Below, piece by piece: positions 1,727 through 30,308 of a DNA stretch of 39,478 bases. This DNA comes from Terriglobia bacterium (lineage in GTDB: Bacteria; Acidobacteriota; Terriglobia; JAIQFV01): contig JAIQFV010000043.1 in NCBI GenBank assembly GCA_020073085.1, positions 1 to 39,478 of the forward strand. The letters run 5' to 3'. The stretch's first letter is position 1, and each line of letters starts with the position of its first letter. The notes under the pieces are model-generated. The model saw only the letters and a program-made list of their open reading frames with translations. It ran no database searches and was not told where the DNA came from. A program made the translations under genes and the position numbers.

Positions 1727-3097
1727 TCAGGTGCCGTTCGCATCGAGCTGATACATTGTTAGCCCGGAGAGCAATTTGGGATAAAAGTCCGTCGATTTCT
1801 GAGGCAATCGTTCTCCGGCAAAAGCCAGGTCGCGCACCTGTGCAATCCGTGTAGGGTTGAGAAAAAAGGCGAGCTGAGATTCTTTTCTTTCGACGGCCTG
1901 CAATCCCTCCTCAAAGTCGCGAAGGTAACGGACGTACCGCTCGGACCGGATATCCTCGTCGGAGATTCCCAGACATCGCTCCAGGATGATCTTGTGCAAG
2001 ATGACCACATCCAGCTGATGTTGGCGCTCGGGGACATCGGGCAAAAGCTGTTGAAGATTCAGAGTCCCTTTCAACTTCATCAAATAGAAGTTTGAAGTAC
2101 CGGTTGCGCGGAGCCCGATCGCCGGGATGACCTGGCCCACTTCATGCAGCTCCCGCCGAAATTGTTCCAGTTTTCGCTCCCGTTCCTCGGGCGTGAAAAA
2201 TTTGAAGCCCGCGAGATCAAAGAACCACTGCACTCGGGTGAGGAAATCCTTCATCTCGAAGTAGGGAAGGTTTGAGACCAATCGATGGGCGGGCAAGATG
2301 GTCAGGCCTTCGCTGTCCATGTTGACGAAGGTCATCATCACCTTTTCGTAAGGGGGGAGGTCGCCGGCGGTTGTAGTCCCTGCCGTGCCGGGTTGGAGGG
2401 CGCGACACTCATTTCGAAAATTCAAGGCCGTTTCATACCGATGATGGCCATCGGCGATGATCAGGCGCTTGTCTTCCAGCTCCCGCTGGATCCTGGAGAT
2501 CCAAGCGGGTTCCGTGACTTTCCAAACCGAGTGAATGACCCCGTATTCATCGGTCACACGAATGTCCGGTGCGGTTGCAGCTGTTTCCTCCAAAATCGCA
2601 TCAACAGCCCGATGCGGGTCCGTGTAGAGCATAAAAAGCTGGCCAAAATGCGTTCGGGTCCGCCGCAGCAAGTTCAGGCGATCTTCCTTGGGTCCACTGA
2701 GAGTCTGCTCGTGAGGAAAAACAACTCCGGAGGAGTAGTCTTCCAGCTTCCCGAGGCCAATGAAGCCTTTCCGGGTCAGTCGTCTGCCCGGATTGGAAGG
2801 GAGCTCATAGTCCTGAAAGTAGACGAACAGGGCCGGCTGATCAATTTGGTGGAGAATACCGGATTTGATCCACTCCCGGAGCGACTGCTGGGCGCGGGTG
2901 TAAACGTTTTCAGCCCCGGTGTCGCCGGGAAGCGGCCTGCCCCGAATGATGCGCGCCAGGTTAAAAGGACTGGAGGCATAATAGCGCTCCCGCATCTCAT
3001 CGGAGATCTTATCGTAAGGTTGCGTGACGACCTTCTCGAGACCACCGACCCGGGCCGAATCGTACTGGAAGGCTTTAAATGGAAAGATTCTGGCCAC
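1727..3097 (-). CDS. DUF1015 family protein
   Basis: The 456-residue soluble protein matches the DUF1015 family from start to end. It begins with an ARIFPFKAFQYD segment, then VTQPYDKISDEMRERYYASSPFNLARI at about 24-50. The family hallmark IIADGHHRYETAL sits at about 213-225, and the paired histidines suggest a metal or phosphate-binding role. The start is GTG at 3097 with AGGA about 7 bases upstream. It is the last gene of the minus-strand cluster, 82 bases after the CoA-transferase gene. The biochemical function of DUF1015 is not established, so its link with ureide or pyrimidine catabolism is only positional. Confidence 0.9.
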   Translation of the reverse strand: MARIFPFKAFQYDSARVGGLEKVVTQPYDKISDEMRERYYASSPFNLARIIRGRPLPGDTGAENVYTRAQQSLREWIKSGILHQIDQPALFVYFQDYELPSNPGRRLTRKGFIGLGKLEDYSSGVVFPHEQTLSGPKEDRLNLLRRTRTHFGQLFMLYTDPHRAVDAILEETAATAPDIRVTDEYGVIHSVWKVTEPAWISRIQRELEDKRLIIADGHHRYETALNFRNECRALQPGTAGTTTAGDLPPYEKVMMTFVNMDSEGLTILPAHRLVSNLPYFEMKDFLTRVQWFFDLAGFKFFTPEERERKLEQFRRELHEVGQVIPAIGLRATGTSNFYLMKLKGTLNLQQLLPDVPERQHQLDVVILHKIILERCLGISDEDIRSERYVRYLRDFEEGLQAVERKESQLAFFLNPTRIAQVRDLAFAGERLPQKSTDFYPKLLSGLTMYQLDANGT

Positions 3098-3128
3098 TGT
3101 TCATCCTGATCGAATTCTGAGATAAGGG

Positions 3129-3150
3129 TTCTTTGCGCCCTTTGCGTTGG
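3129..3150. repeat. GC-rich dispersed repeat fragment (CTTTGCGCCCTTTGCG type)
   Basis: TTCTTTGCGCCCTTTGCGTTGG in the spacer before the DUF1015 gene matches one arm of a repeat seen at 5935-5952, 22140-22227 and 24859-24893, where it alternates with CACCGCAAAGACGCAGAG-like arms. Confidence 0.4.
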
Positions 3151-3179
3151 AATGATTTGCCGAGGCAAACGGTGTCGAA

Positions 3180-4313
3180 CTAAGCGAGCGAGGAGAGGAT
3201 TTCCTCCGTATGTTCTCCCAGCCGCGGAGGAGGCAAGCGAATCGCTCCGGGGCTTTCCGACAGCTTGATGGGAATGCCGACGAGCCTCAAAGATCCAATT
3301 GTCGGGTGATTGACTTGCGCGATCATGCCGCGGGCTTGAATTTGGGGATCCTCAAAGACTTCTCCCACCGTGTTGATATAGCCCGAGGGAACTCCCGCCT
3401 CTTCCAGTATCCTCCGCCATTCGGCGCGGGATTTTGTTTTCAGCTTCCCGGCCAGGAGCGCGCGCAAGGAATCGTAATTCCTTAGCCTGTCCGAGTTGGA
3501 GACGAAGCGAGGATCTTTGCACAAATCCGGAAGCCCGATGGCTGCACAAAATTTCTTCCAAAGGCCCTCATTCCCGACTCCCACATTCATGAACCCGTCC
3601 GCGGTTTCAAACATCTCGTACGGGGCAATCGAGGGATGGCGGTTCCCGAGTCGTTTGGGGGTGCCTCCGGCAAAATGATTCTGCGCCTGGTAAGTCAGAC
3701 AACCGACCAGCGAATCGAGCAGCGCAATGTCGATGTGCTGTCCATGACCGGTCCTTTCCCTGACCCGAAGCGCCAGGAGAATCGCCTGGACGGCGTTCAT
3801 GCCGGCAACGATGTCGGCAATGGAGAGACCAAACTTGACAGGAGGACCGTCCGGGAAGCCCGTCACATCCATGGCTCCACTCTCGCCTTGAATGACCACA
3901 TCGAACCCCGGAGCTGAGGCCCGGGGACCGGTATGCCCGTAACCCGTGATGGAGCAATAGATCAGTCGGGGATTTCTTTTCGAGACCTGATCAAAACCAA
4001 AGCCGAGCCTGGCGAGCGCCCCTGCCCTGAAGTTTTCAACCAACACATCGGATTTTCGGATGAGCTTCCACAGCGCATCCTTGCCGGCCTCCGTTTTCAA
4101 GTCCAGCACAATGGATTTCTTGTTCCGGTTCAGACTCAGGAAGTAGGCGCTTTCACCCTGAATGAAAGGGGGGCCCCAACCTCGCGTGTCATCCCCCGCG
4201 GGCGGCTCCACCTTGATGACCTCAGCCCCCATATCGCCCAACGTCATGGTGCAATAGGGGCCCGAGAGGATGCGCGAGAGATCACACACACGAAGGTCTT
4301 CGAGGGGCAGCAT
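3180..4313 (-). CDS. class III (CaiB/BaiF) CoA-transferase
   Basis: The 377-residue enzyme belongs to family III CoA-transferases, which move CoA between carboxylic acids through an aspartyl-CoA intermediate. It opens with LEDLRVCDLSRILSGPYCTM and GDMGAEVIKVEPPAGDDTRGWGPP. Further on come DLKTEAGKDAL and DVLVENFRAGAL, all typical of formyl- and succinyl-CoA transferases. By alignment from memory with formyl-CoA transferase, the catalytic aspartate is D167 in SIADIVAG. I chose ATG 4313 because AAAGG lies about 10 bases upstream and the family N-terminus begins there. The frame stays open to 4451, but those extra 46 residues do not look like the family. It lies between the NCS1 permease and DUF1015 genes. 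The substrate is unknown; a carboxylic acid from ureide or pyrimidine breakdown is a guess. Confidence 0.9.
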   Translation of the reverse strand: MLPLEDLRVCDLSRILSGPYCTMTLGDMGAEVIKVEPPAGDDTRGWGPPFIQGESAYFLSLNRNKKSIVLDLKTEAGKDALWKLIRKSDVLVENFRAGALARLGFGFDQVSKRNPRLIYCSITGYGHTGPRASAPGFDVVIQGESGAMDVTGFPDGPPVKFGLSIADIVAGMNAVQAILLALRVRERTGHGQHIDIALLDSLVGCLTYQAQNHFAGGTPKRLGNRHPSIAPYEMFETADGFMNVGVGNEGLWKKFCAAIGLPDLCKDPRFVSNSDRLRNYDSLRALLAGKLKTKSRAEWRRILEEAGVPSGYINTVGEVFEDPQIQARGMIAQVNHPTIGSLRLVGIPIKLSESPGAIRLPPPRLGEHTEEILSSLA

Positions 4314-28099: not shown

Positions 28100-28137
28100 G
28101 GGATTGCAACGCATGTAATGCTCAGATGTCCCTGGCA

Positions 28138-28165
28138 GGGGCGCTCCGACTCGTCGGAGCGCCCC
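28138..28165 (+). repeat. GGGGCGCTCCGA hairpin before the permease
   Basis: GGGGCGCTCCGA, loop CTCG, TCGGAGCGCCCC gives a 12-pair perfect stem. It ends 15 bases before the permease ATG and is followed by TACAAGTTTAATTTT, which contains no Shine-Dalgarno. It could be a weak terminator for the TPR gene, a REP-type repeat, or a translational control hairpin. Confidence 0.65.
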
Positions 28166-28180
28166 TACAAGTTTAATTTT

Positions 28181-29616: not shown

Positions 29617-29693
29617 TGGTGGACCGCATGGGGCTCGAACCCACGACCTCATCGTTGCGAACGATGCGCTCTCCCAAACTGAGCTAGCGGCCC
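29617..29693 (-). tRNA. tRNA-Ala (anticodon CGC), CCA encoded
   Basis: The minus-strand sequence folds as a full cloverleaf. The acceptor GGGCCGC pairs with GCGGTCC, and the G3-U70 pair is the alanine identity element. The D arm is GCTC/GAGC, the anticodon stem CATCG/CGATG carries loop TTCGCAA (CGC at 34-36), and the T arm is GTGGG/CCCAT with loop TTCGAGC. A73 and an encoded CCA complete it. It reads codon GCG. A promoter lies at 29714-29742. The 5' half and the promoter are duplicated at 30086-30194. No clear terminator is visible downstream. Confidence 0.97.
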
Positions 29694-29750
29694 ACGTTCA
29701 ACGAACGTCTCAAATACTACTCGATACCTGTGGGTTTTGCAAGGCAGCGG
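29641..29750. repeat. direct repeat copy A: tRNA-Ala 5' part plus promoter flank
   Basis: This 110-base block is matched by 30086-30194 with one substitution in the flank (GGGTTTTGC versus GGGTTATGC). The only other change is the replacement of the anticodon arm, 15 versus 14 bases. It covers the tRNA from the start of the T arm to its 5' end, the leader hairpin ACGTTC/GAACGT (29694-29708) and the promoter. Confidence 0.9.
29714..29742 (-). promoter_or_regulatory. promoter of tRNA-Ala
   Basis: On the minus strand, TTGCAA (29742-29737) and TAGTAT (29719-29714) are separated by exactly 17 bases. Transcription would start about 14 bases before the tRNA 5' end, leaving a leader with the ACGTTC...GAACGT hairpin for RNase P removal. 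Confidence 0.65.
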
Positions 29751-29763
29751 AAAGGCTCCCGGG

Positions 29764-30033
29764 CTACTTTCGTCCTGGGACAAATGGGCCATTTTGTCTT
29801 ATTAATTCTTCAATAAAGAGTCGACTTTTCTGCCTCTTGATAAATCTCTCGCGACGTCGGGCCGTGCTTTGGTCTGGATGGGGCTCCGCATATTCGAGTC
29901 GAAAAGGTCTGCGATATCGCGTGGCCTCTTGCTGCCCCGAGTTATGTTCGCGCAAACGTCGTTCAAGATCACTAGTCGAGCCAATGTAGTATCGCCCATC
30001 TTTCAGGCTCTTAAGAATATACACGAAGAACAT
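29764..30033 (-). CDS. GIY-YIG nuclease domain protein (UPF0213/YhbQ-like), inside a tRNA duplication
   Basis: The 89-residue protein is a single GIY-YIG domain: VYIL (4-7) and YYIGST (15-20) for the two tripeptide motifs, R25/R26 in LERRLREHN, and the metal-binding Glu E62 in RRERFIKRQK. It ends with the family's LFIEELIRQ. These domains cut DNA with Mg2+ in homing endonucleases and repair proteins; free-standing UPF0213 members are poorly defined. Here it sits between a broken tRNA-Ala copy upstream and the intact tRNA-Ala downstream, all on the minus strand. A duplicated tRNA promoter lies 125 bases upstream and could drive it through the pseudo-tRNA. No Shine-Dalgarno is evident before ATG 30033. 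A mobile or homing function is inferred from context, not shown. Confidence 0.9.
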   Translation of the reverse strand: MFFVYILKSLKDGRYYIGSTSDLERRLREHNSGQQEATRYRRPFRLEYAEPHPDQSTARRRERFIKRQKSRLFIEELIRQNGPFVPGRK

Positions 30034-30080
30034 GAACTTGACAGGGGGATGATTAGCTTAACTCTCAATTGCAGGCGGGG

Positions 30081-30137
30081 GGTGGCCACGACCTCTCCGA
30101 TGCATCGGAGCGCTCTCCCAAACTGAGCTAGCGGCCC
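30081..30137 (-). pseudogene. truncated tRNA-Ala copy with palindromic anticodon arm
   Basis: The acceptor 5' strand GGGCCGC, TA, D arm GCTCAGTTTGGGAGAGC and variable region AGGTCGTGG are identical to the intact tRNA-Ala. The anticodon arm is instead the perfect palindrome CTCCGATGCATCGGAG, whose centre contains TGC but cannot form a normal 7-base loop on a 5-pair stem. The T arm and acceptor 3' strand are absent: GTGG runs straight into CCACC. It cannot form a functional tRNA. Confidence 0.85.
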
Positions 30138-30194
30138 ACGTTCAACGAACGTCTCAAATACTACTCGATACCTGTGGGTTATGCAAGGCAGCGG
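30086..30194. repeat. direct repeat copy B: tRNA-Ala 5' part plus promoter flank
   Basis: This is the counterpart of 29641-29750. The near identity of the non-coding flank shows that the duplication is recent or is kept alike by conversion. Confidence 0.9.
30158..30186 (-). promoter_or_regulatory. duplicated tRNA-type promoter
   Basis: TTGCAT (30186-30181) and TAGTAT (30163-30158) are 17 bases apart, one base different from the promoter of the intact tRNA. It should still be active and would transcribe the pseudo-tRNA and then the GIY-YIG gene. Confidence 0.55.
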
Positions 30195-30308
30195 GAAGAC
30201 TCACATCTTGCTCTTTGTATCGCGACGAGTGGATTATCTGGGTTGACTGGAACGTGAAAGAATTGACGAGTCATCCGCTCTTTGATGAATCTGTGGCAGC
30301 CTCGAGCC

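Follow-up and report, generated by a model that had tools for sequence, protein, structure and literature searches.

A candidate single-gene mobile unit with a GIY-YIG nuclease in a tRNA-Ala gene of a Terriglobia bacterium, and its relatives across bacteria

The window analysed here, the whole of a 39,478-nucleotide stretch from a Terriglobia bacterium (contig JAIQFV010000043.1), contains a tRNA-Ala locus that is probably occupied by a mobile unit with a single gene, whose GIY-YIG nuclease would drive entry into the tRNA gene and duplicate the half that it disrupts. For these nuclease units I infer both mobility and cleavage. Related units occur in very distant bacteria, and together they have the look of a family of tRNA-gene parasites that is widespread and so far undescribed; no description of an association between GIY-YIG genes and tRNA units was found in open-licence papers, and an earlier description elsewhere is possible.

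In the order of transcription, on the minus strand, the locus begins with a promoter and leader, followed by ~53 bases from the start of tRNA-Ala, a spacer of 52 nt and a GIY-YIG open reading frame of 89 codons. Behind these come the promoter and leader once more and, last, a complete tRNA-Ala(CGC) (Table 1). The original prediction had placed a GIY-YIG gene between an intact and a damaged tRNA-Ala, and this is what the annotation tools recover: the inner tRNA is complete (ARAGORN; Rfam tRNA, 60 bits), with G3-U70, A73 and an encoded CCA, and the outer copy ends after position ~53, without the T loop and the 3' acceptor strand. The duplicated block is also real, as 29666-29758 and 30110-30202 are 97% identical, the T-arm side is repeated too, and the repeat has a local-alignment score of 184 compared with 24 in shuffles. 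However, the two copies are not the same but for one substitution, as had been claimed. That description holds from the -35 to the tRNA start, where the sole difference lies in the -35-like hexamer, which reads TTGCAT in the outer copy and TTGCAA in the inner, but within the outer tRNA the 17-nt anticodon stem-loop CATCGTTCGCAACGATG has been swapped for the 16-nt perfect palindrome CTCCGATGCATCGGAG, which tRNA positions 27 and 45 abut directly. The outer copy can be ruled out as a working tRNA-Ala(UGC), having an anticodon loop of 6 nt and lacking the T loop and 3' strand. Elsewhere in the window, near the start of an amino-acid permease gene (28137-28166), there is a long perfect palindrome, AGGGGCGCTCCGA-CTCG-TCGGAGCGCCCCT, whose core fits the pattern of the palindrome in the tRNA copy.

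Table 1. Features of the tRNA-Ala locus, in positions of the window.
Feature	Position	Strand	Evidence
Intact tRNA-Ala(CGC), regenerated functional copy	29617..29693	-	ARAGORN; Rfam RF00005, 60 bits; 77 of 77 bases shared with G001's empty allele
Inner promoter and leader copy; -35 TTGCAA (29737-29742), 17-nt spacer, -10 TAGTAT (29714-29719)	29694..29758	-	Direct repeat; hexamers putative, read from the sequence
GIY-YIG (UPF0213-like) nuclease open reading frame, 89 aa	29764..30033	-	Pfam PF01541, E 9.3e-18; closest solved chain UPF0213 BH0048 1zg2, E 3.9e-10
Unique 52-nt spacer, from truncated tRNA to nuclease start codon	30034..30085	-	Lacking in the empty allele
Truncated tRNA-Ala copy, positions 1 to ~53, without T loop and 3' acceptor strand	30086..30137	-	Repeat; comparison of empty and occupied alleles
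Palindrome CTCCGATGCATCGGAG in place of the truncated copy's anticodon stem-loop	30095..30110	.	Exact replacement
Outer promoter and leader copy, TTGCAT in the -35-like hexamer, upstream of truncated tRNA and nuclease gene	30138..30202	-	Direct repeat
Stretch of ~445 bp by which the occupied allele exceeds the empty one, made up of spacer, nuclease gene, promoter copy and tRNA 5' part	29641..30085	.	Comparison with G001:C11

Comparison of the window's genome (G000) with that of another species of the same genus (G001) supports entry at the T arm with regeneration of the tRNA, as originally proposed. At the tRNA-Ala(CGC) gene, occupied in G000 and present in G001 as an identical copy without a nuclease gene, the alignment is unbroken to the T arm (~tRNA position 53), after which the occupied allele has ~445 bp extra and then the remainder of the tRNA. 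The full tRNA regenerated there equals the empty allele at 77 of 77 positions, and the promoter is mostly retained (95.6% over 135 bp). The situation is reversed at tRNA-Ala(GGC), which is empty in G000 and occupied in G001, so that the predicted empty sites, each a single tRNA-Ala lacking the nuclease gene, are found reciprocally at two loci within one genus. The unit is also as small and as simple as had been supposed, with less than 450 bases, no integrase within the insertion and the GIY-YIG gene as its sole open reading frame; no inverted-repeat ends were seen on it, a point against mobility. The window's class has a parallel case in a different family, where G022 and G085 carry a unit at tRNA-Ile and G007 and G063 have that site empty. 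A relic in G029 joins the nuclease's initial codons to a palindrome and a tRNA 3' half. The promoter copies are at least 97% alike within G000 and within G002 but very different between these two genomes, which suggests that the duplication is recent in each lineage, recurrent at the same site, or kept uniform by conversion.

Immediately past the empty tRNA-Ala(CGC) of G001 (L147, contig C11), on its downstream side, lies a gene with repeats of the CCGCAGATTACACAGATGACGCAG type, which I take to resemble the GxxExxY family. In two genera, L202 (G022:C8) and L204 (G043:C75) have near-identical flanks upstream of tRNA-Ala, one of them carrying a nuclease unit and the other only a palindrome-bearing 5' half; this likeness is possibly due to recent transfer or contamination.

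The window protein belongs to the GIY-YIG superfamily, matching Pfam PF01541 above the cutoff and containing conserved catalytic-type residues. Tyr16, Gly18, Arg26, His30, Glu62 and Lys66 are invariant or nearly so in the alignment of relatives once row L092, a wrong-strand translation, is disregarded. By sequence, the closest solved structures are the UPF0213 proteins BH0048 (1zg2) and EF2693 (1ywl), followed at weak E-values by the structure-specific nuclease SLX1. In close pairs of relatives, dS/dN is 0.78/0.09, 1.46/0.13 and 1.04/0.18, and since dS is well above dN the nuclease is kept functional by purifying selection. A phage search returned 12 records with weak matches to the window protein, 10 of them from Rhizobium phages; the GIY-YIG protein in the Rhizobium phage records H1-H10 aligns with 72% of the window protein at 45-46% identity.

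The association with tRNA genes extends well beyond this genus. The family sample comprises 79 loci, with similarity of the protein as the sole criterion of choice. A tRNA on the same strand lies within 150 nt at 56 of them, compared with 6 of 396 control open reading frames, and none has one on the opposite strand within that distance. Direct repeats flank the gene at 47 of 73 loci (1 of 289 control pairs), and the flanks contain a YCCG-type palindrome at 47 of 79 (16 of 942 random control windows, 0 of 790 shuffles). The search suggested by the original prediction, for GIY-YIG genes with a partial tRNA common to both sides, yields dozens of examples spread over many phyla. Hosts include Bacteroidota, Fidelibacterota, Zixiibacteriota, Balneolota, Omnitrophota, many candidate-phylum lineages and the window's own class, and the tRNAs affected include Asn, Val, Ala, Ile, Met, Asp, Pro, Ser, Arg, Lys, Tyr, Thr and Gly. 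It counts against a tRNA-invading unit that about a quarter of the relatives have no ARAGORN tRNA nearby and that a few lack any tRNA remnant.

Comparison of these loci brings out several features that the original prediction had missed, namely the palindrome that stands in for the anticodon arm, a mirror-image architecture with 3' halves, tandem arrays, protein clades sorted by isotype, and relatives with inverted repeats. Units come in two arrangements. In those of the window type the order is damaged 5' half, nuclease gene, complete tRNA; in their mirror images it is complete tRNA, nuclease gene, 3' half, and the end of the open reading frame often runs into that 3' half. At seven loci the stop codon of the open reading frame falls on tRNA bases 8-10. 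A palindrome in the damaged copy is the hallmark of the family: it replaces the anticodon stem-loop exactly in Ala, Val, Met, Ile, Asp, Tyr and Thr units. Units of Asn have lost part of that stem-loop to it, and in those of Pro it takes the place of the D arm. Arrays, both tandem and nested, surround the full tRNA, with 5' halves on its upstream side and 3' halves on its downstream side. They are expected if new units keep entering a regenerated tRNA, and could alternatively be built by unequal crossing-over. At L016, L062, L070 and L075, nuclease copies stand in tandem downstream from a single complete tRNA, and behind every copy comes a tRNA 3' half with a palindrome. Downstream of the full tRNA-Asn at L070, a palindrome (TCCCGAGAGCATAGCGATTCGGGA) lies inside the loop of a duplicated terminator hairpin.

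The protein tree follows the isotype of the tRNA, with 29 isotype changes compared with 49-60 when labels are shuffled and 42-53 when they are shuffled within phylum (90 columns, with many forks left unresolved). Asp units of three candidate phyla fall into one weakly supported region of the tree, and the sister of the Fidelibacterota Ser clade is a Taylorbacteria Ser unit (support 85). Isotype-sorted clades of this kind fit site-specific spread, and the same fidelity could be enforced by the homology arms alone, without any specificity of the nuclease.

Seven units that are from candidate phyla or unplaced (L014, L019, L027, L033, L036, L006 and L029) form a supported clade (SH-aLRT 97). In the inverted-repeat subclade, most members have ends of the type CCCCCACACC...GGTGTGGGGG, and the sites are tRNA 5' ends in some and gene starts in others. 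The gene starts, named here from translations, are those of ribosomal protein L24 (rplX) in L033, an epimerase-like gene in L036 and a hisS-like gene in L006, with the GIY-YIG open reading frames and their ends around 2970-3290. L033 and L036 have TGAA on both sides, a target duplication, and the right end supplies a GTG start. These inverted repeats and TGAA duplications strengthen the reading of the nuclease family as mobile elements. Separately, L085 (G008:C141) has a GIY-YIG open reading frame with 18-bp inverted-repeat ends (CTAGGGCCGTTCCAACTT/AAGTTGGAACGGCCCTAG) ahead of a carA-like gene.

How might such a unit move? In the mechanism I favour, a unit with only a GIY-YIG nuclease of ~85-100 aa would enter the tRNA gene of one isotype, starting from a break made by the nuclease; the break would probably fall in or close to the anticodon arm, or at the palindrome found in its place. 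The tRNA halves would then serve host repair as homology, regenerating the tRNA and yielding the duplicated half, which is the promoter and positions 1-53 in the window and the 3' half and terminator in its mirror-image relatives. One copy of the tRNA would remain whole and working; the other, which faces the nuclease gene, would be left truncated. The palindrome, with its conserved YCCCG/CGGGR-type arms, may be a structured site of the nuclease itself or else the target in a form proof against cutting.

A homing gene has alleles with and without it at one site, which is just what the reciprocal tRNA-Ala loci present; its insertion also destroys its recognition site, and here the occupied allele keeps a full and unchanged tRNA. 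Because the regenerated tRNA is the same as the empty allele, sites inside the tRNA should stay cuttable, unlike the outcome for a classical homing endonuclease. Self-immunity through an altered tRNA is rejected, as full copies equal empty alleles at both the Ala and the Ile loci, and classical homing immunity as a whole seems doubtful on these comparisons. The unchanged tRNA thereby leaves real weight on a version of the mobile unit akin to REP/RAYT systems, in which the nuclease would recognise a hairpin or cruciform and free or move the DNA that it bounds, with the tRNA arms as landing hairpins and homology arms and the tRNA sequence itself uncut. Such a palindrome-driven element would account for the full tRNA's survival, and in its favour are palindrome arms that are alike across isotypes and phyla, palindromes in the T arms and a terminator loop of duplicated copies, and the faint resemblance of the nuclease to structure-specific SLX1. 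Less comfortably for it, the window genome has CTCCGAN0-6TCGGAG at only 7 sites (1 for the reversed control), the other six away from tRNAs, which makes a weak case for a high-copy REP, and the excess of TCCCGRY palindromes in nuclease-bearing genomes as a whole is slight (median 9 vs 6.5, p 0.03, phylogeny ignored). I regard this version as a serious but lesser possibility; since it and the homing-like version are forms of one mobile-unit idea, my confidence in each overlaps with that in the other.

The remaining alternatives do without a nuclease-driven unit. The protein might act on RNA, as an anticodon nuclease or toxin that cuts its cognate tRNA, with the anticodon-swapped copies as decoys (compare the arrays of type III toxin-antitoxin systems). 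This would make sense of isotype-specific protein clades, of the exact replacement of the anticodon arm, and of the tandem arrays of altered 5' halves upstream of the gene at some loci. However, the altered copies are half tRNAs, truncated where they face the gene and situated inside the very tRNA gene entered, the relatives at rplX, hisS-like and carA-like starts are without a tRNA, and the inverted-repeat subclade acts like an insertion element, so an RNA-level system seems unlikely. Ordinary tandem duplication and decay next to an unrelated GIY-YIG gene, the outcome that the original prediction had named as its undoing, would suit the near-identical tandem copies of the window, but as a general account it is refuted by strand-biased adjacency to tRNAs, repeats and palindromes at dozens of loci, far above controls, and by an anticodon-arm swap too precise for decay, and I give it very little credence. 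An integrase-driven island attached at the tRNA and since reduced to its GIY-YIG gene would likewise explain tRNA halves that regenerate the gene, as they do in integrase islands generally. Against it stand the ~445-bp insertion without an integrase, the independent recurrence of the one-gene structure in many isotypes, and a 5'-half duplication that includes the promoter, which is atypical of attachment sites; no integrase was seen outside the repeats in those flanks of relatives that were read, and I consider this origin highly improbable.

A nuclease-driven mobile unit remains my preferred reading. Its widest form I can put forward only tentatively, at somewhat less than even confidence: a new pan-bacterial class of mobile elements may exist whose sole mobility gene encodes a GIY-YIG protein of 80-100 aa, with units that specialise in an isotype, regenerate the tRNA and mark the sacrificed copy by swapping the anticodon arm for a palindrome, the inverted-repeat subclade likewise sparing the host at the start codons of essential genes. 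If this is true, many anonymous single-domain GIY-YIG proteins gain a function, many of the partial tRNAs and palindromes that lie close to tRNA genes gain a source, and bacterial mobile DNA gains a GIY-YIG-driven class. It would also mean that a parasite free of recombinases can inhabit essential tRNA genes without host death, and how a nuclease recreates its own target would become a testable question.

The closest known case is SegB of phage T4, a free-standing GIY-YIG homing endonuclease whose gene lies in the tRNA region and which drives the inheritance of that region (PMC2988022). The likeness is a GIY-YIG nuclease gene within a tRNA region; in SegB, however, the setting is a phage tRNA cluster with an intergenic site and no described duplicated tRNA half or anticodon-arm palindrome, whereas the window protein is a lone domain of 89 aa. 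For BH0048 and EF2693, the window protein's closest solved relatives, no description of mobility or of a link to tRNA was found. RAYTs are tyrosine (HUH) enzymes paired with small REP palindromes. They share with the nuclease units a tie between small palindromes and a nuclease-type enzyme, but the window insertion has no HUH transposase, and the palindromes of the units replace tRNA arms beside a GIY-YIG gene. Integrase islands that target tRNAs also insert into a tRNA gene and regenerate it; the nuclease units differ in having no recombinase, in duplicating 5' or 3' halves of up to ~130 bp and in measuring less than 0.5 kb. Finally, group I introns with homing endonucleases invade tRNA genes while sparing tRNA function, but the nuclease units involve neither intron nor splicing, and a second, complete tRNA is present.
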